This document shows, one piece after another, positions 24,456-57,971 of a DNA stretch of 64,000 nt. The notes beneath the pieces were generated by a model, which was given only the letters and a program-made list of their open reading frames with translations, was not told where the DNA came from and searched no databases. Each line of letters begins with the position of its first letter. Position 1 is the first letter of the stretch. A program made the position numbers and the translations under genes. This stretch comes from Ulota crispa (lineage: Eukaryota > Streptophyta > Bryopsida > Orthotrichales > Orthotrichaceae), in contig OY987245.1 in NCBI GenBank assembly GCA_963920765.1, positions 1,256,727 to 1,320,726 of the forward strand, read 5' to 3'.

Positions 24456-25230
24456 CGGAGTTCGAGCCTCCGACCTTTAAACCGTCGCGAGGGTGGCTTT
24501 TGGTTGTAAACCAACACCAGCAGAGTCCGACGTGTGGAACCCGTCGTGGCAAATTTAGCGGTCGGTCTCGGTGGCCGTTGTCTGTCCTCATGCGGTGTTG
24601 CATGCCGTCAGCGGTCTCCGTCGTTTATACTTTTGCAGCTGGCCCTCTCAAAATGCAAAACTTGTGGTGTCGTCGAGCGCACTCCGTCGCCGAAGCCAAA
24701 CTTCCATCACCACAACTTTTCTTATCGACCGCTTGAGCGACCACCGCGTCCTCCCGGGCCTTTTCGCCCCGCTCCTTGCATTCCTCAATATCTGGCTGCT
24801 CATAATTCCGTCGTCCCTTCCATCATCACGAGCCATCCACTTGTTCCGCGCTAACACCATCTGCGTCTCTTCATGAAAACAGACCTCCACTCCGCTCCAT
24901 TTCTTCGTGTTGCTCCAGATCCGTCCTTCCACTGGTCAGCGTCTCAACTAACTCATCCATTTGGAGGGTCACTCTCTGTCCTGTGTTTGTACTACTACTT
25001 TTTAATACTCCGTGCCATTCTTTTACTGCTTCGATTCGACATTGCTGTGGTGCTTCTTTCCATGTGGGTTATTCTCAGCCACACCAACCTTCTTTCCTTT
25101 TAGCTAACGTACGTAGAGCTGAATAGACAATGAACATCGAATTCCAGATTGTGCTATGTGGGCGGATTTCTGAGGTGACGCTGTGACTGAAAGAGTGCAG
25201 TTTGAAGTGCGAGGGTGAAGTATTTCTGCA
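24456..25230. promoter_or_regulatory. Upstream region of the dioxygenase gene
   Basis: A GC-richer stretch with several overlapping short frames on both strands, none recognisable. Its position directly before the start codon at 25231 makes it the likely promoter and 5' UTR. No core element could be assigned. Confidence 0.45.
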
Positions 25231-36299: not shown

Positions 36300-38970
36300 T
36301 TTTTAATAATGTATGTAAATAGATATTTATCGAGAATAGATGTAATATGACACAGAAACTAGGGCATAGATTGAGAAAAATTACTAACTCAATTTGACCT
36401 TGTAGTATTTCAAATTTCATATATCATTTTTGAATTTTGTGTAATAAGATTTTTTTTGCATATATCTTACAAATTAGAAGTCATTTCCACATATTTGTCA
36501 AGAAAAACTTGTTCAAAAATAATTCTACCTATTATTTGTTAGTCTTGAATGAGCATGCAAATGTCCATGACCCTTGGATTCTTTAAACACAATGTCCTAT
36601 CTAACTAGGCTCCTCAATATTAGAGGAGAAAACGAAGAATTTTAAAGGAATGCATGGCAAAATCACATGTTTGTTGTTTGATGTTGATTGTCAATTGTTG
36701 AAATCAATTTGTATGTTCCTACATGAATGAGATGTCAAATTTTTACAAAACAATCTAGATTTTTTTCAAACATGATAATCATAGCAAATTGCAATTTGTC
36801 AAACTTGATTTCTTTTTCAACTGGTCAGTTTGTTGAATGATTTGATGAGCAAGTAGGACAAATTATAATGCATCAAAAATGGATTGTTTGGATACCATGT
36901 GTTAAAGCTATTGAAATATAAAGATTTGTCACTAGAATGTTTAATATGCTAATACTACTTTGGTGATGATCCCATGTTTTTGATGTTAAGTGGACATGCA
37001 TTCTTAGTATGAGCTGCTTTTTGCTCAGGGCGTGCACTCCCCATTTTATTTAAGAACACGTGCAATCAAATGAAGGGTTATTTTAATTGCTTTGGTCCTA
37101 AATTTTTGACATGCTTTTAAAATAAATAAGGGTCATTGTAACGTGTATATGGTCTTTATAATTAACAAAGGATATTTTATATTGATGAGTTTTATATATT
37201 TTTAAATTCTACAATAGGGCTATTTTATTAGAAACAAAAATCCAAGAATATAATAAGGTAGGGTCCGGTATAGGTTTTAGTATAAAATGTATCTGTAGAA
37301 TCCAAAGCAAGTTTCCAATGCGCCCTATATGCCAGCTGTCCTAGGGTTTACAATGGATGGCGCTCTCTCTATACTACACGTGGCGGGACAAGGGGATTTA
37401 GGGTTTAGGGTTTAGGATTTAGGATTTAGGGTTTGGAGGATGAAATGAAAAGTTTGTAGTTCAGAATAATGGATGAAATATAGTTTCAAGATGGTTTAGG
37501 GTATTACTTGTCTTTGCAAGAGGCTTGGTAGGGATTCCTTATCTTGTTACTCTACAGCTCTGAAAGTTTTGTTGTTCGTCTAGTACATGTTTTTATAATG
37601 AAAGTAGGGACCCCTAAAATATCACAATTTATTTTTTATAATGAAGCATAGGGTTCATTTAATCTTAAGAATTTAGAAATTTACCTAAACATAGCCCTAT
37701 GAAAATACACAAAATTTACCTACATAGCCCCCCTTGAATAGGGCCTTGAACGCAGGGTACCCCTAAAAATTTGATATAGTGCACTCCCCGAGGCTTTTTG
37801 TTTGAGATTTTGAGATGTCACATTTAGATGAGTATTGCAAGTAGAATTAATTTCTTTAATTGAAATTGTTAACCTATGTAGTACAATTTTATTATTTTCA
37901 ATACCCCCACATGTCTCCTAGTAGCTATCAAGCTACTAGGTGTTTGTTGTACTAGATGTCTATTGGTTGCGAGATTGGTTGCAACCTATTGTAATCAATC
38001 TATCCAAAACCACTTCATGATTATGTATTTGTCACCCTTTCATGGCAATTTTCTTGAAATCAAATCTCCAATCAAACAAAGTTGTGTTCCTTCTTTTTTG
38101 TTATAAGTGAAACCTGGAGCAAGACCTAGAGTGGGGATAAGCTATTTTGCAAGTGTAAAATGGTGAGCCATGAGCATAAAGCAGGGATTTTTGTGCAGAT
38201 TTTTTTTTATTATTAAAAAATTCTAGAAGTCAAAAAAATAATTCAAACTTTGCAATTTTTTTTTCAAACTTTTTGCAAGAACATTGTTTAGTATTTCTGT
38301 AATTTTGGGACATCCTATGACCGTGGGCTTGCAGGACCTACGACCAAGTGTATTTCTGTATATATAAAATCAAGATTTATTTCCGAGGACCTATGACCAA
38401 TTAGATTTCTGCAAATAAAAATTATGAGTTTAGTCTAGTGAGTACATATTGAAGGTAAAAGAACATTCATACATTTAGTCTTTAACATGATGTAAATACT
38501 TATTGTATAGTAGAAAAGCTAGGAAACGGGCACACAACAATGAAGAATGAATGACAGCATGTATAAGCAAGGACAAAGTATCTTGAGAAATCCAAATAAT
38601 TTATAGATATGAGCCATGCTGCATCAACAAAAATAGACGGGCTCTTATAATGACAAGTTCACCAAAATTGGGCCCCAACTCAAATACCTATATGTAGGGC
38701 TAGAATCATAAGAAGTCGTTTGACCTCTGAAAAACTAAATGAAGGGGCATGCATGAAAATGTCGTGATCTGCATCTAATCCACAGAGTACTGTGAAAATA
38801 TAATATAGATGCTTACAATGCGTCCACTGCCTACGTTTTCCTAATGCACCACTTAGCATGTCCTTAAAATAAGGGCATGAACATTCAAGGAATGAACTAA
38901 TGGTGAGCATGTACTGTTCAACTTTGTTCTTGGACTTCAAATTGAGAGATATGATGCAGCCGAACCCAGG
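36300..38970. other. AT-rich intergenic DNA, with a telomere-like tract
   Basis: No gene is recognised. At 37396-37432 there is a short, imperfect (TTTAGGG)n run. Between 38320 and 38420, GGACCTA(C/T)GACCAA occurs twice. A 86-codon frame at 38680-38940 (minus) has no known motif. Confidence 0.45.
37396..37432 (+). repeat. Short interstitial telomere-like repeat (TTTAGGG)n
   Basis: Five head-to-tail units are present: three of TTTAGGG and two of TTTAGGA. TTTAGGG is the common plant telomere unit, but so short a run is also frequent in plant promoters and introns. Confidence 0.7.
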
Positions 38971-41900
38971 TTACGGGATGAGTGTAACTTTCTGAATTCC
39001 ACCTTTCACAAATTTAGCAGATGCACAGTTGTTGCACTGCTTGGTTGTTGGGCCCTGTAGACTTTGCTTGATTGATTTACCTAACCTACTTTTGGGGTAC
39101 TCATCAGGTAAGGCAGGTGCTGGAAAAGATGACAAATCAAACGCTGTGGAATTCTCCCCAAATAGGCGACAAGGAGAAATTTTAGTCTGTTGGGGCAGTT
39201 GAAAACCAACATATTCAAGTGCCAAAATTTCCTTGCAGCTCAAGTTTGTTCCACATTTCACAGGCCAAATGAGTGGGAGGTTTGGGCAAGAAACAACCCA
39301 TTTACATTTTGTATCTTTCACGCAGCGATGAATATTGTCATTGCAAAAGAAGAATTGCATAATGTCCACTTTGTCCTCCTTGTAATTAGTCATGCCACTT
39401 GTATATGTTGGCGCTGCTGTACTGGAACTATTCTACACAATTCGGGCTGTACATTTCTTCTTTGTATGAGCTTGTTGAGCAAAACAACATTTTGCAAAAT
39501 TCTAGAAATATGCCATTCATTGACATTACAGTCAGTCTCCATAACTTTGGTGACACGCGGCATGGACGGCTGATCATCAATAGGGTCAACAAGTCTGACT
39601 TCCACATCCATTTAGGTTTCAAGGATTGGCAATCCTTTAGGAATTGAGGTAAAAGTGGGCCCCCCACTTCTGGCACCGGTTCTTTTCATTCCAACACGAG
39701 GGCGAGAGAAGTTTACCTTGTCAGGTCGATGGGAGTCCAACTTTGAACCCAAAGGAATATCTGCCTTCCTTTTAAATGTACCAAACACTTCCTCACCTTC
39801 TAGATGAAGGCTCCTAGTGCAGAATTGCTGAGCATTAGATAAAAAGTTAACAACGACGGTGAGTTTCAAAGGTTCCCCGGTTGAACTGCCATTTGTCTCG
39901 TTACTTGCAATTTCAACTTTGCTTTGTCTGGTCCTCAACCTCCGTTATCTCCTTGCAGAAACTTGTGATACTGCACAACTTGCATAAATGCACAAATGAA
40001 GTCATCTACAGTAGCTGTGTACAAATTGTCTCCACAATCCCCCAATTGATGCTGCCACTTGCTATGCACTGACTCCGCCAAATTGCAAGCTGGCGTTTTA
40101 GCCAATTTGGCTTTGCTCAATTTCTATATTGAATAATTACCAAACAACACACTAGCATCAGTGTTAAAGAACATGAAGAGTCTTTATAATTCATTGGATT
40201 CTAGCACATGTGTGCACATTAGCCATGTGAAATTCATTGCGCAGAAATTAGCGTCATCAAAATGAGAGAATGATCCGCTGCTGATCCCCTTGTAGCCAAC
40301 AAGTGAGGCTTTGAATTCAAAGGCTACTCTAGGAGCTCTAGGGAGATTGACCAAAACAGAAATTTCTGATCTCCTTGACGCTTGCAACTGTAGTTTTGGA
40401 TCCAAAGGCTACAGCTGAAGCTTCAAGGAGATCACAAAATCAAAGGAACTGCATGATTTGCATACAAAATCGGACAATTTTTTCAAACATAACTACGAAT
40501 TCGATGTGCGCAATGCAGGAATCCTAAACCAAATATTACAATGTCAATGAAACTTACCAAATCCATGAACCCTCCTCATTGTCTACAACAAAAGTGCCAG
40601 AATGCCAACTAGAGCTCCAAGCGAGGCAGGGAGACAGGATTTGCAGCTCTAGAAGAGTGCCACCACGCACAAATGGCAAGATACCTAGTCTCAGCTTCAG
40701 GTATGGATGTTGAATTCTTGTATTGCTTACATAATTGCTTGTGTTGATGTTGCAAGTCTGCACGAATGTCAGCTTTAGTGTGTTTCTCTAAAAATTGTGC
40801 CCAATGGAAAAGATAAGTACGTTGTCAATCCACCATAGGCACAGATGCATCACCTGTGCCATACACTTGGCAAACAACATTCTAGTTAGCCTACACACTG
40901 GCAGCCATGAAACCTTTAAAGTTAGGGACATTGATGCCATTCCGCTCACAAATTGCATTCAAGTTCTTCCATAAAATCATCTGCGCAGCAGCATCCTTAG
41001 ATTGCATATTGCAAACTGCAATGGTTATCACTCGGCAGAACACTAAATCATACACGTGGCAAGCCATTGTCGTCTACTCCTTCATGCGTGTTACATGGTC
41101 GAACATCATCCAAGAATCTTGAAGGTCTCCACCATGTTGCATACGTCAAACTAAATCCACCCCACTTCCAAGACCCACCTTGGACATCTTGAAGACAAAC
41201 ACCTTCACCCCATCCACTCCTTGACCGAGAAAAATGTTGTCCTGAAAGAATGCCCAGTGGGTGCAGCCTCTCAATTTTGTAATATTGTCCATGACACCAA
41301 ACTTTTGAAAATCACAAAATGTAGCTACTTTGTTTCTCACGTTAGGAGATGACATGGATCTACATTTCTCTAGAACTAGACGCAGCTCTTGAATGTTGAA
41401 ATTGTTGGACTGGATCCCATCTGGTCGAAGAAGGATCTTCCCTAGAAGCTCCTTTGTAGCTTCTAGAACTATTGCGGAAGTCTTTGCAAAAGGGGACCTC
41501 TCCACTTGCTTTTGGAGCAATGACAACGTCCGTGCTGCCATGTCACGCTCCACACCTAATTTAATAGGATGGATATGGGTGTCTAAGTGAACACAAGCTA
41601 AAGTTTGTTGCTGTTTAGCAAACACATAGTACACTCAAGCACTACAGGCTGCCACACAAATAGGGACAGACTTACACATCTTACACACTATTATGGAACC
41701 AAAAGGAGTCAAAGCCCCAACAGAGAAGGACAAGGCTATTGAACCTTCCTACTCTATCTTGTTCACATTTGTTGAACGGTGCATACAATCTAAATAAGGA
41801 CAATTTTCATATGAACACCTCAAATGACCTACACACACGGATGTTCTAAAATTTAAGCCCAACATGTTACAAATATTCAAAGTGATTGTCTTGGTCCAAG

Positions 41901-42579
41901 CATGACCATCGTGTCATTTATCCATGCCTTGCATCCTCCCAGCTGAAGATTGCAAAGTATTTTGTAACAATATTGGGAGCTCAAAGATGATGTCTCCATT
42001 GAAGGCTAAGGGAAAGTATTTAACCTTGACTACTAGAATAATGTTATAGTCTAGACTCTTAAAAATGCTCCTTGAGCCTTTTGAAGCCGGAATTTCCTTG
42101 AGCAAAACAATAGCACTTAGGGTATGGAAGGGCATTGACAATGGATCATTATCAAAGCCATAGTTCTCAGATCTGACAGGCTCCTCCCGCATTGAGCTTT
42201 GCAATGACTGACCAATAGGTGGGGCAACAACAAGGGAGTTTGCATCTAAATCATCACTCAATACATGCACAACCTTGTGACTTGCCTCAATTTTCACTAT
42301 AGTTAGGACATGAGTATCTATAGATGCAACAACTAGAGTTGCTAGAAGTACTGGCGGAAGAAGATCAACTATAACAGTACTGACTGCACCAAAGACTCTA
42401 TAGCGTCCGGGAGGAAGTGACCATTGCTTCATTGTACTGCTTGTATCTAGAAGCCGATCAACAAAATACGACAAAATGCCGGTTGAGGCATCGCGCACCT
42501 CCTCATCAATATGCAAAGACTTTGTCGTCAGTGAAAAGAACTGAGGCAATCTACACGCGGAAACTCTAGAAAACAACAA
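38971..42579 (-). pseudogene. Degraded MULE-like transposase gene
   Basis: One reading frame runs from 42579 to about 40560, broken by scattered stops, and coding-like segments continue to 38971 in other frames. The first part (42579-41914, 221 codons) is unrecognised. Next comes a Cys/His-rich segment (CVGHLRCSYENCPYLDC near 41800; VCKMCKSVPICVAAC near 41665). YYVFAKQQQTLACVHLD and AIVLEATKELLGKILL follow. The core (VYDLVFCRVITIAVCNMQ near 41010, GFMAAS, QRTYLFHW near 40810, then HTKADIRADLQHQH, AWWHSS and LAFWHF) has the order of the MULE transposase domain before its C/H motif. ACNLAESVHSKWQHQ (39935-40120) belongs to the same protein type. The acidic residue I expect in GFMA(D)S is Ala here and the Cys of the CxFHW-type motif is Tyr, so it is inactive. 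The family placement rests on motif pattern only. Confidence 0.7.
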
Positions 42580-42979
42580 TTCTCTACCGAGAAAAGTATT
42601 GGAACATCAAATGCATGGTGATAAACAATAGCCATTTGAACAATTTGTTCACAATGGAGAGGGTCGCCCATCTATGCAAAACTAGAACTTCTTACAAATG
42701 TTACAATAAAATTGGACAGAAAGATACAGCAGAACATGGAACTTGTTCACAAGAAAAGTGTTTAGCATTGTGGATTGAGAGGCATAAGTAAGGAATAAAT
42801 CGGGAAGGTTTGCCAATCGCAAAATGGACCAAAAATTGGTCGAGGAGTTAAAAAATTAATGCAGCCCTACATACAAGACAATGGTATTGCAATTAAAATT
42901 ATATCTATGACGCCGATGGCTGCTGACAACTTTATTGTCCTATGCACTATTGATGTATGAAACGGCACTATTGTCCATG

Positions 42980-43640
42980 CATTCACTCACATTTTTGTCA
43001 CTTGGCCTCTATCAAATATTTATGAAGTCTGGAACTGGGGATTTAGATCTCACTTTTGGACGACGGCTACATAATTGCAAATTCAAATTTGTTCATAGAG
43101 TTAGTAGGGGTCCAGCTTAGTCTCCTCAGTGAATGTAGACATCATATATGGATAGCACATCATTTCACATTGTGGAACTTTGCTAGTCAACTTTTTCCAA
43201 AGGGAGTATCTGTTAATCATGACCGGAGAGAAGATGTCAAAGATGAAGTCCTGCCTCTTGTTTTCAAGTGTGAAGGACTTGCAAAAGGCAAAGCTACATT
43301 GCAAGTTCTTTTTGGCAAACACAATGACTGATGAACTATCAATGCGCACTTTAGTTCTAGATGGTGGCAAGGACGATAGCAATGATGTCCAGCTAGAAAA
43401 ACAATGTAGAAGGCGGAGGTTGCGCTGAGTGATTGAGATTGACAAAAGCCATTGTAATGACAACAGCTCCTCTAGAGTTTACAACATTGAGATGGTTGAA
43501 GACAACTCCAGTAGCCAAGTGAGTGCAAGTTTCAAAACATAGTTGTGCATGACATAGTTTGTGGATATCCAATTGAAAGAACTGTATTATGATTGAATGC
43601 AATGAATGGGTGGAGGAGCTTGAAGTTGGCAAAAGAGGTT
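42980..43640 (-). pseudogene. Possible 5' exon remnant of the MULE-like gene
   Basis: Minus-strand frames at 43101-43463 (120 codons) and 43393-43632 (79 codons) continue the transcription direction of the degraded transposase, but neither has a motif I know. They may be N-terminal or leader exons or simply chance frames. Confidence 0.25.
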
Positions 43641-45404
43641 TTAGCTTTCAAAGAAGTTGTAATACATTTGAAGAAAACTTAATTTATATGACGTTCTTTT
43701 TGCATCTTATTGGTATCCAAGATTCTGGCATTTGGTAGTGCAAAAGTGTACACACTTCCTTATACATGTTGACAGTCTTAGCTCAAGGCTATCCAATTGT
43801 TCTTAAACGATCTTCAAAAGGTCTAGATCTAGAGAATGACGTGAATAAGGAACTACATGTGCTAAACGCTCGGATTGTAACACTAGTGCATGATGAGCTC
43901 AATTTAGTAAATCCAATAATATTAGCAAGGATTAACATGCACAACCCACATTCTCTCTTGCAACAACTACTAATGTTTCCTTTGTTGAATTGTCATCAAC
44001 CTCAGAACCCTTGTGCAATTGCGTCGCCAAAGCGGCCCCACCTTTGGTGCACTAGCAATTGCAATGTCTTGGTCCCGCCTGTCACGTACCCCTCAGCCCT
44101 TGCCACTGCACCTAGACCTTTGCTGGCAACTCTTGAGCCCTAGCCGCTGCTCTAGAACCCTACTTCCTAGGGCTATGGAGCATCGCTATCGCTGCAGCAC
44201 CTCGACCTTGCCACCATTGCACTGAGTACCTCCCCGCTGCACAAAAATCCTAGCTCTCTCCCTCTCGCTGCAACACCACAACTCTACTTCTTCTCCCTCT
44301 CACCGCTGTACCGCAACAAGCCTTTTGTTGCGCTGATTGGCCTTTGCCTGCGCACCAAAACCCTCAGTCTCTCTTTCTCACATGCTCCATGCGCTAGAGT
44401 TTGTTTTCTCGCAACAATTTGATGTGTGCAATACTCCAGCACTTAGAAATCCGTTTGTTGGAGTTGGTAGATACGCGCTATCCAAACCCTAGTTTGTTGT
44501 TGTAATGCCTCGCCAAGGATGCATGAGCATGCCTGTTGATGCAACATTGCACTTGCTGCAAGGAAGAATTCTAGCAATCACTTGTACTTCACTACGCCTT
44601 CAGTTGTTATCTCAAAATCTACGTCTATGTTGCGAGGGAGTTGCACTTACTTGATCTCCCGATCCGCCGTGGAAGTTCCAAACTTACTCTTGCAGTTGTT
44701 GGAGTTGCGAGGCATCGGAGTGCTTTCCCTTCATGTAATACGCGCACAATGTACTTGCTATTTCCGCATACATTTTGATTGCACGTTGAATGTAAGTTCT
44801 GTGCGTCTCTTGATGCTTAAGCGGCCATTTGAAGTGATGACATGTTTGGTTATTCTTCTTAGAACAAACAAAACCAGTAGAAGATCATAAGTTTATTGGA
44901 GCTCCTTTGCTATAAGCATGTACCCTTTGGCTCCAAAAGCTTCATTCCTTTTGCGGAGGAGCTCAAATGATGTTGCCTCAGAGTCGTGTGCTTACCAAAA
45001 AACTCTACTACCGTCGGAATTTGAATAGCTGTCTAGAGGTGCCACTAATGAATACGTTTATGGGGCTTTCACTATAAAGTTTTGCCATTTTTAAGTTAAG
45101 TAAGGAATTTGATGTATCATTAGTCATGTTGGAGTTTTTGCCATCCCTGCCTTGCTCTTGGTTTCAACATGAGCATCACCATCATCAGTTCTTTAGTCAC
45201 GTTTTATGCAGCAATGCAATGGTTACTCAGATACAAATGGTGAATTCATGAAGTTGATCTAACAGAAATGTAGTTCATTTTACTGCTGTGGAATATGGTC
45301 CTTTACATTTTGCTTGCAACAGAGTTCTGGTATTGCAACTGAGTTTCAAATCATGTCCTTATTGTCTGTGCTTATCAAACATGTTCATATGTGTGGGTTG
45401 GCAG
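43641..45404. other. Spacer between two divergent element genes, CT-rich leader-like
   Basis: Between 44040 and 44560 the sequence is C/T-rich with many CTCTC and AACCCTA motifs, resembling a transcript leader. A short plus-strand frame beginning at 44505 (MPRQGCMSMPV...) and one at 44582-44890 have no recognisable family. The position suggests a shared promoter region for the leftward and rightward genes. Confidence 0.35.
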
Positions 45405-48400
45405 GTATTACCTGCTGCTGCAATGGAGCAACTTCTAGCACCGATAGGGGTATAGGAGCCGCGACAGCAATCTACATTACAGCCTGCAGCTTTTGGTTCA
45501 CATGGTCAGCCTGAAGCAATAGAGGATTAGACCATGGTAGATGAATACTGCTTGCAGCAGCAGCATGTGAACATTGTCGTCGCCATTGACAAGATGAGAA
45601 TTGAACCAAAAGCTTTGTCAAGGTTCAACATTCCCCTTTGCAGGATGATCACCCTTTCATTAGTTAGGCCGACCCTCTCTGCGGATGTAACAAAGATTGA
45701 ACATTTCTTTGCTCATGGCTATCGCATAGGAAATTGTTGTTTTTATGTCTCCATTACATATGAGAATGATCTTGAAAAGCATTACACTCTTGAAGATTTA
45801 GAGAATTGGGGACCCCGCTAGATAGCCAGGAGTGACGAGTTTGAGGAGTTCCTTGCATCAAAACCAGACTTGGAGTACCTAGCTTGGCAAATGTTCTACA
45901 TTTGTGATGGCAATCATTGCCATCAGCCTTGGATAGCCTACATCAAGAGGCACCATTCTAAAGATTTAGCGTGGCACTACTCAGTGGATACAAGTTGCCT
46001 TGATACTTGTGGGAAGACCGGCCTACTTATGAACTGCATGCACGATGTGAAATTGGTGCGTAAGCCTTTATACTTCACCCTAGTCTTTGCAGTTTGTGTT
46101 TGCCAAAGTCCAAGGTTCTAGACTTAAGGGGTTAGTGACTAATGAAAAATTGACTATTTATATGCAAAGGCAATGAGACATCGTTCATAAAGAATAACAT
46201 GGTGGACACGCTGCATCATGTGCAAGCATTTGGACTGCAGTTGCTGGAAAGTTTGAGACCGAGCTTGACAATGACAGAGTATGCAAAATGTATCAACAAC
46301 CCCAACCAAGAGAAGACTTGGTACTCCTTAGCTACCGATGTGTTCATCAACGTCGAGTTCAGGGTGCATGAATCCCAAACTTCACTCTATATTCATCTGA
46401 AAATATTATATGAATTCTGATATTAATTTGCATATAGTGAAATGCAGCATGACATTGCAGATGCCTTTGATTAGGCATCACAATTATACTGGATTGATAA
46501 TACAATCAAGGAGAAAACTCAGCATAGCGCAATGCTGGTAATGCAAGATGCGTTGGCCACAAAACACGGAAACTTGAAAGGGTTGTTCAGTAAGTAAATG
46601 GCATTGGTAAATTTGAGCTTGGAGGACTACTTCTTACAAGAGGTATTTTCATTGGAAACTCTCGCATGATGCAATATTGTTCATTCAAGTAGCTACTTTA
46701 GAAAATTTAGCATTGATTATATGATTGCAGCTTGAAATTCCCATTAATACTGCCACGCATCAACCATGGTGTATTTGGGGTTGGGGTGCGCAATGGGCTA
46801 GGGTGCAAGCCTCTTGGCGCTTGCATCCAAGCCGTTGGACCCAAAGGCTCGGGTGCGAGCGCCAAGGAGCTTGCACCCTAGCCCATTGCGCATCCCAAAC
46901 ACGCGCGTGGGTGGCAGTCCAAGCGCGCTTAAGGTGCACGTTGTGGCCTAGGTATGAGCGCCAAGGGGCTTGCACTCTAGCGCATTGCGCACCCCAAATG
47001 TACGCGCGGGTGGCACTGCGAACGCGCTTAAGGTGTGTACTATGGCGCGAGTGCGAGCCCCTTGGCGCTCGCACCTGAACCTTTGGATTTGAAGGCTTGG
47101 GTGCAAGCGCTAAAGGGCTTTCACTTGAGCCACAACGATTACGCGCTGTGCACGAGCTGCGCTTCATGCGCGCACATAGAGCTTGCGTTTGGCGCCAAGG
47201 GAGCTCTCACCCTTGGCGCTATGTGCACGTGCTATGCGGGCGCGGATGGCGCGGATGGCGCAGCGCGTGCGCATTGCGCTAAGGGTGAGAGTTCCCTTGG
47301 CACTTGCATGTCAGGCGCAATGCGTCTCCAAAGTTGTGCGCACGTTGCGGTTATCTTGTTTGCGCACAGCGAAAGCGTGTTGCGCCTCCTTTTTGCGCCC
47401 GCTGAGGTGGTATGACGCGCTTCCGCTATGCATGCGCACAATGTGGGAAGCACATTGCGCCTTGCATTCTAGGCCATTGCTTCTAGCATTAGTACTGCAG
47501 GTCCTAGATGGCTTGTTTTTGCTACTGTTGCTGTTAGAGAATACTTGGAAGCTTTTGGGTAAGCTGAGGACTCTTTGTCCTTTCTATGCATTTCATCAGC
47601 TAACTTTAGTTTTTTGGTGCTTATCTCGCTGGTTACAAAGCACTGGAGCACATGCAACATATCCAAGATTTAGATGACCGTGGAGAAACTTCAATTGGTG
47701 GCCACGGCTCATGCAGTGCCTCAGCATAAGCTGGTTTGGCTTTGCTAGTGGAATGCTAGTGACTAGTCCTAGAAGGCTTACCGTTTCCTTGCAAAACTGG
47801 TCATAGAAACCGACTTGAAAAGCTGTCTCAACAAGGCCTGCTTTTATGCTGGGGTGTGTATTATATCTTATGATTCCTTTAATGACTAGTTACTTGCCTT
47901 TGTTATTTTGATCAATCATTTTTGTTTTGCATTACATGTTCTTGTTATTATGTTTTTAATGATTGATTGTCTCTTTTCTTGCAGTTGGAGGACTTGTTCA
48001 TGGACTTGCATTTTGTGGTCATGGAGAAGGACCGGATTGTTTTGAGGAATCAAATGGTTCTAAACCTTTGAGTATCCCTGAGTATGTGACTCTTTGGCGG
48101 TTGAAGTTATGGGATATTAGGTTTGTTTTTTTTTTCAAGGGAAGTAACCCTTACACATGTTTGAAGCCTTTTGAGCAGCAATTGGGTATTGATCTAGCTG
48201 TGGAACGAATTTTGTTCAAGTTTGTTTCTTTTGCCATTCAATTTCATGACTTCCCATGTTTGGCATTGAATGGGTTATGATGATTTCCAACAAACTCTAA
48301 TTTCTATGAGAATTCATGATGCAAGTACTACAAGTATGTGCTTTTGGCGATGGGTTTCATTACAAAGTCTCAATTATTGGTGATTTTTAAAACCTAGGTT

Positions 48401-50494
48401 GACCCTATGTCAAAGGATTGTATATATAACCCTAAGGTGTCCTCTAATTGGTCATCATCACATCTCCAAGCATGGTTCTAGTATCTTGATTGCGCGTATA
48501 GTACCTGCCCTCCTGAGGAGGTGGCGCTGAAAGCAGCACTTGACGCTGCTAATTCGCAACCATCTCACAAGAACTTAGACAATGATGGTGAGGCTGCCAG
48601 CATTAGTCATTTGGACCCAAAAGAGCAGAAGAAAATTATTGCTCAGCAGGATAAACTTGCAGAGAGAACACAATTGTAGCAGTTGAAGGAAGTTGATGCC
48701 ATTGCTAAGCGGGAGGCTGTAGCTGTTGAGAAGGCAAGGAAGGCACAAGGGAATGTTAGTCAAACTTCTGCCTCGGGTTCTAGGAGGAGCGCCAGGGTTG
48801 TTGCAACAACTCAGCTCTCTAACTTGCTAAGACCAACTTCTCCAGCCGCATCTCTGGCTGGTTTGCAGTCAACAGGCTAGTTGAAGCGTCCCGCTGCAGG
48901 CCCTGCTCATTCGAGTGCAAGTTTTGATGTCCATCTTTGCCCTGCATTCCTTGAGATTGGAGCTACTTCTTCAGAGCCAATGGAGATCTTATATCATGGA
49001 TCCTTAGCCTCCATCAAAGCTCACCATGTGGACTTTGGCCAGTTTCCAACAGAGTTTATGGATATGATGGCGTTTATTAACAAGGTATGCCATACAAGAT
49101 AAAGGTCTTGTTTTGTTTGGTCCTTGTAATATTTGCTATTTGATTACCTAATCTTTATATCATATTTGTTGCACATGCAGTACATGAGCGGGCGCAAGAG
49201 GGCATTTCATGGTGTGTCTACAGCTCGCAGTGCTGTGGATCAAGTTAACGCTAACATGCCAGAGAACTTACCTGTGCCTCGTATTTCACTTCTAGTATCC
49301 TCTATTCCTACTTGGAATGCGCAGAAGCCGCTGTTCCTTGAGTCTTTGTTTCATTTTTCTAGGAATCTTTTGCATGACAATGGTACGTTGATCCTTTGCC
49401 ACTCCGATACCTTGGACATGCCTTTGTTTTGAGGCTGCCTTATTACTTACAATTTCAAGGTGCTGAAGCAGTGGACTGGAGTGAACCGGATGTGCCTCAC
49501 GGACGCTCTTGACCTTTTTGGTTGGATAAGTTTTTAGTTTCACATCACAGTTTTGTTCATTTTTAGAATGTGGGTTTACATTGCTTTTATTCTTAAATAC
49601 CTCTTTTTTTTCTAAACAAACTAAGCTCTTTACCATTAAGCTTCTAGTTTGTGAGATGAACGCGCCTTTGGTGAGTGGGTTTTGTTTCCAGTTTGTGGCT
49701 GATCTCAAGGACGTGGACCTTGACTTAGCAAAAGACATCGTGATACATAATTGTGTGACAATAGAGACGCAAATGATGTATGAGGGCAAGTCGCTGCGAG
49801 GGGCACAAGAGAAAGATTCTTGCTTAATTCAGATGTTGATAAGGTTAGCTACTCTACCTGGCAACATTGTTGTGGATTGCACCGCGGAAACAAGTTTGTT
49901 TCTACCCTAAAACTCCAGCTTTTTTGTAAGTTATTGTCTTCATTTTTGCTTTGTTAGTGCTTTAGTATGTGTATAATTGTTCCCATTTCTTACGTGTGAC
50001 TATTATTGGATTTTTTAGGAGCTAGCATTGAGGCTTGTAGGGCGGCAAGTAGGTGTTTGATAGCATTATTTGATGATGAGGTTGTTTACCACAACATTCT
50101 AACACCTCTACTCACATTGGATGCACCTATTGCGGCAAAAAAGGCACGTCTAGATGCAGTGGTCAACATTGATGACGAGGAGGTTGAAGACATAACTGCT
50201 GTTGTTCTCCCTAAGGACAACAACACATTCTATACGTAAACTTTCTCTTCTTTGCGTTTATTGTCATTCTTGCCAAGTTCTGCCTTTATCTATTATTTTG
50301 TTATATTTACTGTGGGTTCTCTAATGTCTTGTAGCTCAAATTTGAAGGGCAGGCACCCTTCTCCAAGCTTGCAGAGTTCCATGAATAGTTCAAGCTCTGA
50401 ATCAGACTTTTTGTTACCTTCATATGCAGAAGCTCAAGCTCAGTGGGAGGAAGCATTTGGTGGTGTTATTAGAGAGCCAAGTGGGTTTAAATGA
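45405..50494 (+). pseudogene. Degraded ParB-like plus DNA amino-methyltransferase-like fusion gene
   Basis: From 45405 a Gln-rich segment leads into one frame (45534-46121, stop at 45819) holding KHYTLEDLENWGPR, FEEFLASKPDLEYL and YICDGNHCHQPWIAYI (45900-45947). The DGNH..xAW pattern resembles the GHR motif of ParB/sulfiredoxin-like domains. A frame at 46199-46420 continues it. After a GC-rich insert come a Lys/Glu/Ala-rich segment (48470-48760; TAG at 48677 and 48878), then exons about 48683-49084, 49181-49520, 49692-49893, 50019-50235 and 50335-50494, nearly all with GT-AG borders. RISLLVSSIPTWNAQK (SIPTW at 49301-49315) resembles the DPPW-type catalytic motif and HDNGTLILCH follows. RGAQEK...LATLPGNIVVDCTA resembles the SAM-binding motif, completed across an intron by ASIEACRAASRCLIALF. 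Motif order (catalytic first, SAM-binding last) is that of beta-class N4C/N6A methyltransferases. Several stops and altered key residues make it non-functional. Confidence 0.7.
46735..47470. repeat. GC-rich, GCGC-dense imperfect tandem/inverted repeat island
   Basis: An abrupt GC-rich block in AT-rich surroundings. Motifs such as CGCGCTTAAGGTG recur about 100 bp apart (near 46926 and 47025). Short palindromes like GCGCCAAGGG/CCCTTGGCGC and GGGTGCAAGC/GCTTGCACCC recur throughout. The overlapping frames on both strands (Ala/Arg/Cys-rich) are by-products of composition. It lies inside what looks like an intron of the methyltransferase-like gene. Confidence 0.8.
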
Positions 50495-51235
50495 GATCCT
50501 AGTGTCCTCTGATAGATCACTCTTTGTATGTTTGGGTACCCCTTGTGCGACAAGGGGGTATTTCTTAGGGGGCTATTTACCTCCCGGGTATGAATAAGAG
50601 GGTCCCTTTAATTACATAATTTGGGATATGAGCCTATTTAGTGACACCCTATAATTACTTATAAGACCTAGACACTCCCATTTTTTCCACACTATATTAT
50701 TTATATTTCAAATGTAGTGGTTAATAACTTTGGACAATTTCTTTTTTTTGCAATATGAACATAGAGAGCTTAGGTACAGCCAAACCTACAATGCAATGAG
50801 AACTCTATCTCTAGCATGAAGATTTCTAACAAACTTCACAAAAAGCCTTAACGTTTTAAAGAACTTCAATGGTAGAGTTATTCATTCACTAACATTAAGC
50901 AATGCACGGATTGTGGTTCAGGGGGGTTGAAGGGTTATTTGTTTGTTGTTCAAGCAATCTTGTGTGCAGGTTAAGGTTCACCTTAGCAAACCCTGCTTTG
51001 TCCAAAAAAGATTCAAGTATGAGGCAGAAAGAGTGGTTTAACATTTACAAGCATTGGAGTATTGCCTTGACTGTAAAGGCGCTATGTCTTTACAAAACAA
51101 GGGCTGCAAGCAAAGCAATAACTGTATTGCTTATGGACCATCACAAAACAAAGACCTTTGTAAAATGGAATGTATGTGAGAAAAGAAAAACTTGCAGCAG
51201 CCCTCCCCATCTACCAAACCAAAAAGACGTGAACC
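50495..51235. other. Spacer between element genes
   Basis: No gene is recognised. The plus-strand frame at 50902-51264 has no motif and is probably chance. Confidence 0.4.
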
Positions 51236-51763
51236 CTAAGCCTGTGCACATAATTGGTGTCTAACGGCAGAGGAGGGGTATGACCCAAGCATCAAGGTCC
51301 CCTGCACTTTGATCTCCAAAGGCGGGACATTGAATTTGGTCATCCAGCCCATAGTTAAACACTCCCGCAATTCAACGAGCTCTTGCAATTTCATCTCAAT
51401 GAACGTCAAATTGCGGAGCGGACTTGACAATGGACCTTGCAACACCCACAATCTTTGTAGCAACGCAAAGTCCTGCTCAAATTGCTGCAAGCGGACATAC
51501 TCAAGTCGGGGCTGGATTGTCGGAAAAACATGCATTGCCAGTCGATAAGCTGCAAACTTTGGTGTGCTTGCGACAAGAATCCAAAGGCGGTTGTTGATGG
51601 CAGCACACTTCCCCATCGTCTGTAGCGCTGCTCCTTGTCTTGGTTCTGGGTAATCTAAATAGTCCCATCTTGTCCACAAAGGAATTGACTGCATGGCCCA
51701 CGACGCAAAAACCTCCAAAGCAAAGGTAGTTGCTGCTGGAGCAATCAGCTTCTTATTTGCCAT
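51236..51763 (-). CDS. Intact ORF of unknown function in the element cluster, 175 aa
   Basis: An uninterrupted frame from ATG to stop, in a cluster where every other large frame is broken. It starts MANKKLIAPAATTFALEVF and includes SIPLWTRWDYLDYPEPRQG and a Leu/Gln-rich helical stretch (RLQQFEQDFALLQRLWVLQG) followed by a Leu/Glu-rich segment. There are several Trp residues, no transmembrane segment and no metal-binding pattern. I do not recognise the family. It lies between the methyltransferase-like and second transposase genes, on the strand of the latter, so it could be an accessory gene or a downstream exon of that element. Confidence 0.45.
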   Translation of the reverse strand: MANKKLIAPAATTFALEVFASWAMQSIPLWTRWDYLDYPEPRQGAALQTMGKCAAINNRLWILVASTPKFAAYRLAMHVFPTIQPRLEYVRLQQFEQDFALLQRLWVLQGPLSSPLRNLTFIEMKLQELVELRECLTMGWMTKFNVPPLEIKVQGTLMLGSYPSSAVRHQLCAQA

Positions 51764-53409
51764 ATCTGCTTTTTGATAGCAACAGCCAACAATTAGTTCT
51801 AATGGTTAGCATTTTGTGAATTAGAATTGCTTAATACAAATTGAAGGGTTCATGAGACTATGGTACTACTTTGGGGGTAGGAATTAGAGAAATTCTAGCA
51901 TCCAAGATTACGATAAATACAAAGAGAAACAAAATTAAATCACGGAGAAACAACTTCATATGCCTTTGCAAACCTAAATTGCTAATTTAAAACAAGCAAA
52001 AGGAGATAGTGTTAGCAAAATACATGAACCAGCCGGGAGCACGGTGAGCTTAGAATTTTGGAGGTGTTGCAAACTATGAAGTTGGGCTCACAAGAGAATG
52101 ATTTCTGCTACAACAAACAGAGTGCGCAGTTTAGGGTTTAGGGGAGGGTTTACATAGAACTTCCTTCAATCTATTGTAGGATTAGGGCAGTTTAGTTTAG
52201 GCTGCAGGATTAAAGCTACAGGATTAGGGATATGGGGGTCCGCTAACTAATGTAGGGAAAACTTAGAAATACAAAGGGGTCCTTCACTAAACCTTGTTTA
52301 CTATTGAGCTAAGGGGGGGTAAGTTTGCTCTTTAGGAGCCTTAATCTTGAAGAGGCATTTATGACTACATAGTAAAAGAGGGGTAATCTACTTGAGTTTG
52401 CAGTCCAATTCCTACCCTATAGTAATAGGAATTAAAGCCCTACTAAAGAAGGGAGACTAAAATCCTCATGACAAGCAGCATACACCTTAACAAATCACTG
52501 AAGCTTACAAATAATTAATTAAAACACTACATTAGGAGAAATAATAACAAAATGGAAACAACTAGAATAAGAAACTAACTTACATGGTATACAGGGAGAA
52601 CAAGGCCACATCCAAAAGCAATGCCTCATCATATTTTCTTGTTGTACCATCTCAGCAAACATGGTGGAATGGATTCAAAGGTGACAATAGACAACCCTAA
52701 ATTCACAAACTCTAGTTAAAGGAGGCAATTGTAACATGATTGCAATAAGTCACGTGAATTCTTTGTTGTAATTCAGAGGCAAAAAAAACTTGAGCTCACA
52801 AAGCACCCCCGCCTACCCCTTGGATTTTAACAACACATACCACTTCTCCTTGACTATAGGACATACCATTAGATTTGGTGAATTAGTACATATTGAGAAT
52901 CCTCCTACTCTATTCATCACAAAAGTAACCAACCCACAAATTTGTTTGGCCAATTCACTGTTTATTCTAACACTGCAAAGAAAGAAGTATAGGGTCTAAT
53001 TTGAAAGGAAAAGGAAACCTTCATTTTTCACGGCTCAATGGAATCTTTGCATAAAAACTTATGGGCTGAAAAGAATAAACTGACATGCGCATTTAATGAC
53101 ACAACAAAGCATACCGTCACCGGCTGAAGGTTTGCAGCTCCCATTGAGTTTTAAGCTTTTGTGCTGTGCATACAATTACCAAATGTGCAACAAACCAAGG
53201 TTATTTCTTTCAAGTAGAAATAACAAAAATGGTCAGCCAATCTTTAGAAATGAAACCACCCATTAAAATATAAGTAAGCACAACATTGCAACATCTGATT
53301 TTCAACAAATAAATAGCATTACTTTTCCAAAATGAGCTGCTGTTACATATTGCAAGAACAACCAGGTTCATGGATTCACAGTGTTTTTTCTAGTAACAAA
53401 CTTAGTGAG
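51764..53409. other. Spacer or 3' region of the second transposase gene
   Basis: AT-rich DNA with telomere-like and GGATTAGGG-type words near 52130-52240. No coding frame or terminal inverted repeat could be supported. Confidence 0.4.
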
Positions 53410-56400
53410 CTATTCCGCGTCCTGCCTATCAAGGGTGTAGATTTCACTAACTGGGTTGTAATTCATGGTGACTGTGCTGATAACACAGTCAATGTCTATC
53501 CACTTATGATCGTTGTAGTTGTACTTGAATTTGTTGTTTCCAATATGCTTGCGATAATATTGAAATATGACTTCAATATGTGGATTTTGGGGTTTCACTT
53601 TACCATTCTCTTCCATTCTAGCCAAAAGGTCAACCGGCTGCCTTAACACCCCAAGTTGCCTTCCATTTTGTCGCCTCATGGCCTGCACCCTTCCCACACA
53701 CCAAGAGCCCTTGTCTACAGGATGTAAAACATTAGTAGCATTGCCTAATGCGGCTACATTTGATGGACAGCCCCTTTTACATTTTGCTGCAGTTCTAACG
53801 GTGGAGGAAATTAATGTGGTGCTTTGCTAAACAAAATGGACACCGCAGTCAAATCCTATACTTAATAAACCGGTTCTAGAAGACAACCTTGAACGCATGC
53901 AATTATCATGATTATTAAACTTAATACTCTGTTTAATTCTTGCTAATTGATCTTTGGATAGGAAATTGTTTCCTTTCAGTTGAGATACAAGCGTGGACTT
54001 GTAAATGATATGCCCCTCTACCTCAATTGTTGGCTAAATCTTCTCAGTTGATACGCTGTCTGATGTTGTCACATGAGCCTTCGCATGATTTAGGTCATCT
54101 GTTATTGCATCTGTGGTTTCTTCTTGGAGAATCTATAGATGATCAAGGCTATCGTCTACTACTTTGTCATCCCTCAAATCCCTCATTCTAAGCGCAAGAC
54201 CTTTGACAGAAGAAGACAACATTTCATAATGTAACTTGTCCCTTAAAACCTCAGAGTTGCCGTCCTCTCCAAATACTGCCCTTAAACTTGGTTTGTAGGC
54301 AAAACTTTTAGAGTCAGACCTCTCAAGTAGCCACGGTTTTTTGAACTAGATTTTATTCTTTGAAGAGCACTGCGTGGAAGGCACCATGTTCAAGGAGCGG
54401 AGCATCCATTGGGCAACTTTCAGCCCCTCCTGCAGCGCATTAATGACAGCAGCGTTATTTGGAATGTTGTTGTAATCTCCAAGGTTGTAGCGCTCTTCAC
54501 CAACTTTGAGCTTGTGCAGGTTCTCCCAAATGTTATCCATCTTGTTGTGCTATTTTTTGAAGGCTAACCCATTCTTCCTGTACTCTGTTGCAGACAAGTG
54601 GTTGAGGGTATTTGCTGTATTGAAAAGCTCGTGAAAATCGTATGAGCGTTCGTGGCCATTCATACTCCCAATCCGAGAGAAAAAAATCTCGCATGAGTCA
54701 CTTCCAGTCAAGTTGAGTGGAATAGCCAGATTAGAGTACTTGTTCCTATAATGGAATATCAGCAGTATAATGTAATGGCAAGATAACCGTATATCAATGA
54801 AATATTGAACACTTACAAAATTTCTCACCTCCACTAGTTTTCGGAAATTACCAAGCACACCGTGATCTTTGTGCTGTAACCAAAGTCTCTAGATTTTGAA
54901 AAAAAAAAAAAAACCTTCCCACATAGTACAATCCTCTGCCGTAAATTAAATCTAGGGGAACAGAAGACATCAATATAGTTAGCGCATCTCAAGGTAACAT
55001 TCTGTTCCTAGGGTATGTTCATGACGGGCAAAATCAGGGGCACGTATTATTGCAAGACACACTCAAACTTTAGACTGGTAGAGCCTTTGCGCTGCTCCCC
55101 AATTTTGCCTATCCCTTCTATCTACATCCTTACCTTTCAACCCATGCTCTTCAGCCAAAAACTATTAGAAAACCTGCTCCACATGACTATGTAGACACAA
55201 GTCCCCGCCTAACTGTAATGTTCTCACAGCAGATAAGAGCGGGTTGATTAATTTTTCCCGTTATGTATGTAGTCCTGGTCGCGGAGACCCGTAGCGTCCC
55301 CGTGCATGTCTGTAGAGGCCGTAAACATCCACCCATCCCAACCTATGTTGTATTGGTTCCTCTCAATGCTCTTATAATTAGCAAACATGAGCTGCCTCCT
55401 GCAAGAGTCTCCGTCACTTGCATGGCCAATTACAAGCCTAACAACATCAAGACACTCTTTCTTCCACAACCGGTCAATGACTTCCTATTAATTTCTAACC
55501 CACCTTGAATTGAAGCAATTACAGGTATGGCAAGCAACAAGAACAAGACGTGGTAATTTGTCGTATAGAGGATTAACAACCACTACTCAGGCAAAACTTC
55601 TGGTTCTGCTAGTTGAGAAAGACTCTATTATTTGGTGGTATCTCTTTTCTCCACTCCCGACAATAGGCCTGAAATCCGACAAACAAACATGATTTTCAGA
55701 GGGTCCACAAAAATCGGAAAGAATATCCCATTTTGGCTCCCAAGCGACTCTACCTTTAACTTTTGTTTCATCTTTAGCCAAGATTACAGGTATTGGCCCT
55801 AAAATGTTTTGTGCAATTTTAGCATCCATGTATATTTGTGCAACTGCTGCAAAAACTTGGATATGTTCCCGAGGTAGAAACTAAATACCCTTCCTGACAT
55901 CCCTCTTAACCTCACTGTAGCTAGCACCCTCGAAATTCAACGCAAACAAATCAACCATTCTACGCCCTCCATAAACCTTCATAACTTCCCCTAAGCACTT
56001 GGTATTTTCCTTAAAACGATTACCACAAGAATCCCAATTAACATTACGGGCCACATTAGTAAGAAAATCCCAGAGCACAGGTTTTCTCCCAAAAGCTCCT
56101 GATTGATGGGCAAAAATGATGCTATGGCAAAATTTCATTATGTTGTGTCCATTTGTAGCTTCTCTTGCTAGTTTGTGCAAACTAGGACGCCAGACTTTCA
56201 ATTGAACAATCCTAGCGCGACCAGACAGAAGCTTCAATTTTTCCCTATTAAGTTTTTTACTTATTTCACGTGAATGCTTAGTGAGTTCAGAAATTGAAAG
56301 ATAACCTAATCGTCTACCTCTCCTAGTGCTCCTGGACCCTCTCTTCTTGACACAACAATCTTCACGGAATACCCTAAGATAGAAATCCATTTGCAGAGGT

Positions 56401-57971
56401 ATCAATGAGCACATCAAGCAGGTATTATTCGGAAACCCTAAACTTGAATAATTGACCCTACTGCAAGACCTATGTCTAAATGTGCCACTAATGTCATGTA
56501 CTTCCCCATTCATGACAAACAAGGCAGTAGCATGTGCTTCCGGATACCAAAGCGCACTCGTATAAGGATCATTTAACAGCTCGCAAACTAAATAAGACAC
56601 ACCTCCGTATGTGACATTTGGACCCCTGAATCCCCAACACAACAAACGCAACATCCTATTCCTATCTAAGGTAGAGGTCTCACCTAGCTCACTCTCTGCC
56701 TGTACAGCTTCAGCACCCCACCATCGTCCAAGACTAGGTTGGTTTGAATGCACACTAACCCCGGATGACAGAGAAGGCTGCCCCCTTTGACCGCCAAGAA
56801 CTGGCGCTTTGTTTTTGACCATCGCTTTTGATTGCTCAATGGCTTGCAAGTGCTTCAATGAGGTAAGGTGATTTTGCAAATTCCACTGCAAATTCTTCTT
56901 GGGCGGGTACAAGCAGATCAAGTCTCGATAGTAGAAACACCTTACCTTCATCCAAAAGCTTCTTGGAGAACCCTCATTGAAGGACCCCAAAATGCTGAAA
57001 GGCTTTTGCGTTCCCTTAGTATTATTGTTGACGTCATCCATTATATGAACTCCTTCCTTGATCAGTTTTTTGTGATTCTCCGGAGTCACGAGACTACACT
57101 TTCCTTTTGGAGCAGCGGATTGTGGATGATCGGCGTACTGGACGTCGTTGTGGGCACACCAATTCTTGACATGGTTGGTGCTGAGCAAGTGCTTGGATTT
57201 GAAGTTATTAAATAGGTTTTGAATGTTAATTTTGTCATGCTTGCCGTTGTCTCCTCCAATCTCCTTGCAGCACTCAGCATAGAAGATCTTGACAACGGCA
57301 TTCCCACTAAAATCTGAAGTACACAACAACCAACGATTGTCTTCTTGCAACAAGCACCTTAAGTCCCTTTTCATCCTCTTTGCCTACTCCACATATCTCT
57401 TCCAAATCTCCTTTGAAAGTAGCGTGGACTAAAGCTGGTGGTCTAGAAAATCGGTAACCCAGAATATTCCAGCAATTCTAGAACTTCCAATGGGATCTAC
57501 TTGCTGGACTCTATGATCTTCATCAACTAGGGAGGGGCCGGCATTTCCTTCCAAAGGTGCACTTTTTGCACCTCAATCTTCCACTCAAAGCCGTTTGGAG
57601 GAGTTGTTGTTTAGGGATTCAACTGGCAGAACAAAAATGTTGACCACCACGTCGATCAGGCCTTCCATTTTCTGCCGTATCCGGCACCTCTCTTCATTGT
57701 CCCAAAATTGGAACGGCCACTCTAGGGCGACCTTATCCTCCAACCGCACCCTAAGAGATGCATAAGTTTTGTCTAGCATAACCTTGACATTGCTATAGAA
57801 AGACAAAATCCCAAAATCCATTTCCATTGTCCACTTTTTCAATTGAATTGCTATGACTCCGAAACTCTTCAACCAAATCCCCAGCCCACCACACACATAT
57901 AGGTAAGTAGTTGTTCTTCTATTTGAATGCAATCCAAAATTTGAAAATGGAATATCTAGAGCATTATTCAA
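53410..57971 (-). pseudogene. Degraded zinc-finger/DDE-like transposase gene
   Basis: One frame runs from 57971 to about 55250 with only a handful of stops, then shifts by one base at an A-run near 55253 (continuing LINPLLSAVRTLQLGGD and RRDRQNWGAAQRLYQ). After an intron near 54740-54830 it runs in one frame to 53410. In order: Cys/His segments (YAECCKEIGGDNGKHDK; KVRCFYYRDLICLYPPKK with NLQNHLTSLKH); TCLMCSLIPLQMDFYLRVF; PVILAKDETKVKGRVAW, a candidate first acidic residue; VNPLYDKLPRLVLV with CHTCNCF; GHASDGDSCRRQLM, the second; GLRDQDYIHNGK; then LNLTGSDSCEIFFSRIG, a candidate Glu; and KCKRGCP...LHPVDKGSWCVGR. This suggests an RNase-H-like DDE/DDD transposase. The superfamily is not assigned. 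About ten stops (for example near 57585, 55879, 55587, 54547, 54343 and 53827) make it inactive. Confidence 0.65.

Follow-up and report, generated by a model that had tools for sequence, protein, structure and literature searches.

What kind of gene pairs a ParB-like domain with a DNA amino-methyltransferase fold in a plant-type genome, and what does it do there? The question is raised by positions 45405-50494 of a 64,000-nucleotide stretch of Ulota crispa contig OY987245.1 (positions 1,256,727 to 1,320,726), here called the window, which is part of the chromosome-scale assembly of 274.8 Mb searched in this work and which opens with a DUF4005 (IQD-type) gene, one of its plant-type genes. The original prediction had placed a spliced gene there, beside transposase genes, and had proposed an element that carries its own methylation function. 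We find that window positions 38134-59967 are one DNA transposon with terminal inverted repeats (TIRs), a decayed copy with two genes, and that the gene in question is its accessory gene. The methyltransferase-like domain of this gene is probably a pseudo-enzyme, judging from its motifs, and one of its introns holds palindromes that are candidate parS-like sites.

A decayed transposon and its accessory gene

The element, its ends and its two genes are arranged in the window as follows.

38134-59967, plus: whole TIR DNA transposon with TIRs and target-site duplication (TSD), both ends matching the ends of other copies; about 13.1 kb without a nested insertion
38124-38133, no strand: left 10-bp TSD ACCTAGAGTG, 9 of 10 bases identical to the right one
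59968-59977, no strand: right 10-bp TSD ACCTAGATTG
38134-38154, plus: left TIR, beginning GGGATAAGCTATTTTGC, used in a pattern search of the genome
59947-59967, minus: right TIR
59918-59952, plus: five tandem 7-bp repeats GGCTCAY, adjoining the right end
38974-42606, minus: decayed transposase-like gene in several open pieces, DDE-like core at about 40612-41634; superfamily by eye and TSD length only
45405-50494, plus: decayed ParB-like/methyltransferase-like gene of about ten exons; exon edges approximate, read by eye
45531-46057, plus: ParB-like exon, with DGNHCHQPW
46642-47640, plus: long GC-rich intron with palindrome array; edges approximate
49181-49519, plus: methyltransferase exon with motif IV (NMPENL replacing DPPYNL), then SIPTWN
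49632-49893, plus: methyltransferase exon, EKD...GNIVVDCTA, first half of motif I; start approximate
50019-50237, plus: methyltransferase exon, ASIEACRAASRCLIALFDDE, second half of motif I and motif II

The TIRs are short and imperfect. The right end of the element is sharp at 59967 and bears the reverse complement of GGGAGATGATATTTC, and the left-TIR pattern, allowing up to 2 mismatches, occurs at 36 places in the genome compared to 1 for the reversed pattern. A TSD with at least 8 of its 10 bases identical is present in 11 of the 13 copies for which both ends are in hand, namely the window copy, L017, L028, L025, and nine copies with a left end from the pattern search; a tenth left end, L188, was dropped from the count because its right end was not in hand. 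The duplications are perfect in L017 and L028 and match at 8 to 10 of 10 bases in eight of the nine pattern-found copies, the exception being L012, and L025 shows no match as judged by eye. From their coordinates, these nine copies are about 12.3 to 17.9 kb long. In 17 of 18 right ends, the terminal 120 bp include at least one GGCTCAY repeat.

The accessory gene is spliced, and its product runs from a ParB-like region through a middle region to a beta-class amino-methyltransferase fold. The spliced gene originally predicted is real; its exon breaks are GT-AG-like, and its final stop codon ends at position 50494. A query built from the motif-I exons gave 26 genome matches, and 20 copies (L009-L028) fetched as 10-kb stretches contained a motif-I exon piece in all 20 cases and a ParB exon piece in 18, in the same order, with L023 having the last exons only. 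Genome searches gave 131 matches for the motif-IV exon (127 places after merging neighbours), at least 150 for the ParB exon (from 150 scored candidates out of 192, at least 132 places after merging), and 122 for the transposase exon (120 merged places), and the matches of these three queries reach down to about 25-40% identity. The accessory gene is not a chance reading because its exons recur in 18-20 of the 20 fetched copies and at more than 100 genome places.

Of the 132 listed ParB places, 91 are followed by a methyltransferase exon within 20 kb on the same strand (median distance 4.2 kb), 89 are preceded by a transposase exon in opposite orientation (median 5.4 kb), and 76 carry the complete set of three exons; chance would give about 2%. 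The linkage to transposases that was first proposed is thus borne out genome-wide, but the gene lies inside the transposon rather than beside it. That it is a host gene next to transposases was rejected, as the gene sits between TIRs with a TSD and recurs across the genome together with the transposase. Nor is it an ordinary host gene unconnected with transposases, the outcome that would have told against the proposal.

The window copy of the accessory gene is broken by at least six in-frame exon stops, at 45819, 48395, 48479, 48677, 48878, and 49430. A stop is found in at least one matched stretch of each of the 20 copies L009-L028, although a few of these stops may be intronic, since some stretches run a few codons into introns. 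The ratio of nonsynonymous to synonymous substitution rates (dN/dS) is below 1 in all 25 usable pairs of methyltransferase exons (median 0.56) and in all 11 usable pairs of ParB exons (median 0.22), where usable means dS under 1.5, out of 171 and 190 pairs, respectively, the rest being saturated or undefined and the pairs not being independent. These values indicate protein-level selection during the active life of the element, on proteins that already had the altered catalytic motif described below.

The two domains of the accessory protein

By its sequence, the C-terminal part is a relative of the beta-class amino-methyltransferases. In Pfam searches of the joined exons, N6_N4_Mtase (PF01555) was the sole family listed for the C-terminal part, found in five of nine members at E≤5 with a best E of 2.3e-4, whereas the ParB-like part had no significant match; the window's own methyltransferase exons alone gave no Pfam match. 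A profile of the nine members compared with PDB chains ranked CcrM first, weakly (E 0.065). Single hhalign comparisons with phage methyltransferases gave E values of 1.6e-6 (9 sequences) and 6.7e-6 (13 sequences), spanning motif IV to motif I in that order and placing VDLIIADIPKGLP on VDLIFADPPYNLQ, compared to 0.2 to 0.56 for four controls with a wrong family or a reversed template. The original prediction was right in seeing a beta-class methyltransferase relative in one spliced gene with a ParB-like domain. VVDCTA and ASIEACRAA, which it read as a binding-like motif for S-adenosylmethionine (SAM), flank the intron at about 49894-50018 as the two halves of motif I. Its assignment of SIPTW as a DPPW-like motif has to be given up; the alignment puts motif IV upstream, at NMPENL, and SIPTWN on the W-D/N stretch that follows motif IV.

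The catalytic motif is altered throughout the family. DPPY occurs in none of 37 motif-IV copies, which comprise 17 fetched earlier and 20 divergent ones, most of them picked for a stop-free exon, out of the 127 merged places. Along the positions of DPPYNL, the first is D in 30, N in 6, and G in 1; the second is C, I, M, V, L, or Y; the third is P in 26; the fourth is E in 17, K in 15, D in 3, N in 1, and Y in 1, and so non-aromatic in 36 of 37; the fifth is G in 17 or N in 17; and the sixth is L in 36. The motif thus reads mostly D-x-P-[KE] instead of the catalytic [DNS]PP[YFW], whereas 34 of 59 phage methyltransferase frames have DPPY or DPPF. Motif I is DCTAATGAS-like in place of DPFxGxGTT; it is split by the intron, and the junction residue was supplied or changed by hand in six of ten rows. 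The residue counts at motif IV indicate that the frame of the pocket is kept and the catalytic aromatic residue is gone, and the absence of DPPY from every one of the 37 speaks for a role of the methyltransferase part as a binding module. An element with its own N4-cytosine or N6-adenine methylation function, as originally proposed, is not supported by these residues.

For the N-terminal domain, ParB-like is the best name that its motifs suggest. Over 33 aligned rows of more than 100 residues, the conserved core is PL.RLVPMPMVRPTL..D...LE.EF.HGY..G..VFYVS.TN ... F[FY][VI]CDGNHR..AWM..I ... WH..VD.I.L.TK, in which the GNHR step resembles Box II of ParB, Boxes I and III being recognised by eye only. 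Box II follows the GxxR pattern, with G in 25, N in 33, H in 31, and R in 19 of 34 non-gap rows; in the window copy it is GNHC, the last position departing from R. In profile comparisons with Spo0J-type ParBs, E values of 0.43 and 0.096 were obtained, where controls gave 0.16-0.61, and the alignment at 0.096 sets GNHR on the GERR motif of ParB in register. Consensus queries with X at undecided places found no match. A near prokaryotic or viral donor of the two domains was considered and rejected, as a search of phage records gave one match, at E 3, and no relative was confirmed by scanning viral contigs with both domain alignments and genome contigs with the ParB alignment.

Palindromes in the intron and their possible role

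The third exon is followed by a GC-rich intron (up to 0.62) filled with repeats, which in the window contains five copies of a 24-bp dyad, compared to 0.31 expected from 300 shuffles with a maximum of 3.

46803-46826, no strand: palindrome 1, GTGCAAGCCTCTTGGCGCTTGCAT
46853-46876, no strand: palindrome 2, GTGCGAGCGCCAAGGAGCTTGCAC
46952-46975, no strand: palindrome 3, GTATGAGCGCCAAGGGGCTTGCAC, 2 arm mismatches
47051-47074, no strand: palindrome 4, GTGCGAGCCCCTTGGCGCTCGCAC
47101-47124, no strand: palindrome 5, GTGCAAGCGCTAAAGGGCTTTCAC, 1 arm mismatch

The 22-bp core TGCRAGCSCCWWGGSGCTYGCA, allowing up to 1 mismatch, occurs at 11 places in 275 Mb, with none for the reversed control. All 11, in six copies, lie between the ParB and methyltransferase exons or, where one exon is unlisted, just upstream of the methyltransferase exon; the placement in L025 and L026 used added motif-I exon matches. 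In L031, a divergent copy, the corresponding place is taken by 6.4 tandem units of 106 bp that contain another palindrome, GCGAGCACCTTTG-N4-CAAAGGTGCTCGC. Allowing up to 3 mismatches, this palindrome occurs at 29 genome places (control 0), 19 of them in the ParB-methyltransferase interval of nine copies, and allowing up to 2 mismatches at 11 places, nine of them in that interval. The share of the genome within 8 kb of such exons is about 1.1%. The two groups of copies share a similar half-site, GCRAGCNCC, with different spacing. A related palindrome, mostly GGGAGCACCTTTGTSSACAAAGGTGCTCCC, was seen at eight places off any ParB or methyltransferase match (C1:133646, C1:6439652, C1:6439780, C2:29875206, C3:10249691, C3:21451320, C4:10925068, and C4:17884373). 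The distance between C3:21450306 and C3:21451320 is 1 kb, and the two may belong to an undetected copy or to another system.

ParB clamps are described as loading at palindromic parS sites and then spreading (PMC12704722). A ParB-like protein encoded beside palindromes almost confined to its gene suggests that the protein finds the element's own DNA. The ParB-like domain would load as a dimer at the intron palindromes, as ParB does at parS, and the loaded protein would spread along the DNA of the element. The methyltransferase-derived domain, with methylation lost, would help to bind DNA or SAM, and the terminal GGCTCAY repeats could be a second target. The protein might in this way recognise its own element and shield it from host silencing or aid its transposition, in the manner of VANC of the Arabidopsis VANDAL (Mutator-like) elements, which according to its published description binds short motifs in tandem arrays, some intronic and differing between related elements, and lifts silencing (PMC5735166). 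We regard this account, with the window holding a dead copy of a two-gene transposon, as evenly poised between right and wrong. More doubtful, and put forward tentatively, is the possibility of a self-contained ParB/parS-like system in a eukaryotic transposon, in which a clamp with a dead methyltransferase and loading sites in its own intron would coat only element DNA, shielding it from silencing or marking it for transposition. If true, a bacterial-type clamp-and-site system would serve a selfish element in a plant nucleus.

A number of results weigh against loading of a ParB-like protein at these palindromes. The ParB-like part had no significant match in searches of Pfam, PHROG, and PDB or in profile comparisons, and a structure model of the window's ParB exon from a single sequence reached a mean predicted local distance difference test (pLDDT) score of 33 and was unusable. 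No near prokaryotic or viral relative was confirmed in viral contigs scanned with both domain alignments or in genome contigs scanned with the ParB alignment, which counts here for the ParB part. The GHR-type motif of the original prediction accordingly stands in part: DGNHCHQPWIAYI is in frame at 45906-45944 and fits the motifs, but no library, PDB, or profile match is significant. Thus it could be argued that the N-terminal domain is not ParB-like and its NHR motif convergent. We consider this distinctly unlikely, and the ParB-like name is kept because the motif order (P-L-V-R-P-T-L, G-Y, F-Y-V-S, D-G-N-H-R-x-x-A-W, V-D-x-I-x-L) looks like that of Boxes I and II by eye, the best of the weak alignments sets GNHR on GERR in register at an E value below those of the controls, and the same domain pair has been published in algae (PMC12477816). 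On the side of the DNA, both palindrome patterns were derived from the copies themselves, and the finding is therefore their exclusiveness, not their presence. Ten of the 29 places of the second pattern are away from accessory genes. As in a ParABS system, palindromic sites are tied to a ParB-like gene (11 of 11 and 19 of 29 places), but a general count finds palindromes enriched over every one of 20 shuffles in just half of the bounded copies, 11 of 22; none occur in L021, L027, or L030, and L016 has one core palindrome yet no enrichment.

The array could also be explained without a bound protein. It might act as RNA, as splicing-control hairpins or a source of small RNA, which would agree with its intronic position and with paired half-site changes that fit a hairpin as well as a DNA dyad, and which also tells against protein loading. 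This is unlikely, though worth keeping in mind, because the similar half-site with different spacing in the two copy groups suits a dimeric protein and the gene encodes a ParB-like one. Alternatively, the array may be carried along as a passenger, having begun as a GC-rich tandem satellite or a foldback insertion into the intron that then multiplied together with the element. The array is indeed partly tandem (periods 99, 106, and 127-128), and the second-pattern places elsewhere would be expected of a passenger; however, the corresponding place is taken by one palindrome in some copies (11 places in six copies) and by a different one in others (19 places in nine), and the first pattern at up to 1 mismatch is found nowhere else in 275 Mb, which makes a passenger improbable. 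Most doubtful of all is an enzymatically active accessory protein, whose ParB-like domain would direct N4-cytosine or N6-adenine methylation to the element's own DNA as a mark. The beta-class fold and motif order favour this, and such activity has been suggested in print for the Ectocarpus Sola1 protein (PMC12477816), but besides the absence of DPPY, E or K stands in place of the catalytic aromatic residue in 32 of 37 copies, and motif I also looks altered, with uncertain residues at its intron junction. The arrays offer candidate DNA sites, so that how the protein finds the element becomes a question for gel-shift or chromatin immunoprecipitation.

Known systems, superfamily and other features

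Sola elements have a TSD of 4 bp. The giant algal transposon Sola1-1_Ec32 of Ectocarpus is described as encoding ParB-like and N4/N6 methyltransferase-like domains in one protein of 1,104 residues, with similar proteins in green and red algae (PMC12477816). The element here resembles it in being a large TIR element with both domains, the ParB one by motif only, in one gene opposite the transposase, with a product estimated at about 1,100 residues. Compared with that published description, it differs in its plant-type genome, its 10-bp TSD, the loss of DPPY in 37 of 37 copies, and its intron palindrome arrays, of which the description gives none. In phages and prophages, a ParB-CTPase fold is frequently fused to N6_N4 methyltransferase (PF01555) (PMC12704722), so that phage and bacterial proteins hold the same two domains; they are prokaryotic, and no near relatives of the domains here were found in the viral and bacterial scans. 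The nearest functional parallel, by description, is VANC, likewise an element-encoded accessory gene with target-motif arrays to set beside the palindrome arrays, but its binding and anti-silencing have been shown, whereas for the gene here both are inferred.

Searches of the open-access literature turned up no report of land-plant ParB-methyltransferase transposons or of palindrome arrays in such elements. Algal elements already show this kind of arrangement; what appears new to us is that the host is of plant type, that the catalytic motif is lost, and that an intron carries palindromes. On the role of the ParB-methyltransferase accessory genes known from algal transposons, the family described here offers two handles, the loss of DPPY and the palindrome arrays.

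Mutator-like elements (MULEs) have TIRs and TSDs of 8-11 bp (PMC6446971), and the element here has TIRs and a 10-bp TSD in 11 of 13 copies. By eye, the transposase-like product is MULE-like, showing a DDE-like order with a C-x-x-H step and a Cys/His-rich N-terminal part. Unlike MULEs, it had no match in Pfam, MULE models included, and the element's TIRs are short and imperfect; a PDB profile search with the transposase gave nothing useful. Because of the missing Pfam match, we can only infer from TSD length and the transposase as read by eye that the element belongs to the Mutator-like superfamily. The left half of the element (38683-44140) also has several plus- and minus-strand open frames without a Pfam match.

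The copies L017, L025, L026, and L028 form a subgroup that is 82-87% alike, in which the ParB exon is partly lost and the intervening transposase stretch is missing. L017 and L028 have both ends intact, at lengths of about 6.5 and 6.9 kb, and therefore probably moved in trans. Six identical TIR-like variants, GGGATAAGCTATTTAGTGAG, none at known copies (C4:12150751, C5:7529255, C7:20749106, C9:17881444, C10:1637982, and C10:9183513), are perhaps the ends of a short non-autonomous family.

Two further features of the window are as follows.

50507-59225, no strand: nested 8.7-kb insertion, itself multicopy; edges within a few bases
25219-27228, plus: TauD/TfdA-family gene

The nested insertion is a later one because family similarity ends at about 50506 and restarts at about 59226. 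Its flanks share TGTC, and a short duplication is therefore likely there. It holds a 500-residue open frame on the minus strand (55884-57383) with no Pfam match (best E 0.11), and a 1-kb piece of it has 14 genome matches, six over nearly the whole length. The TauD/TfdA-family gene matches PF02668 at E 4.5e-8, and in PDB it matches bacterial clavaminate synthase and arginine hydroxylases best; a horizontal origin of this gene is possible.

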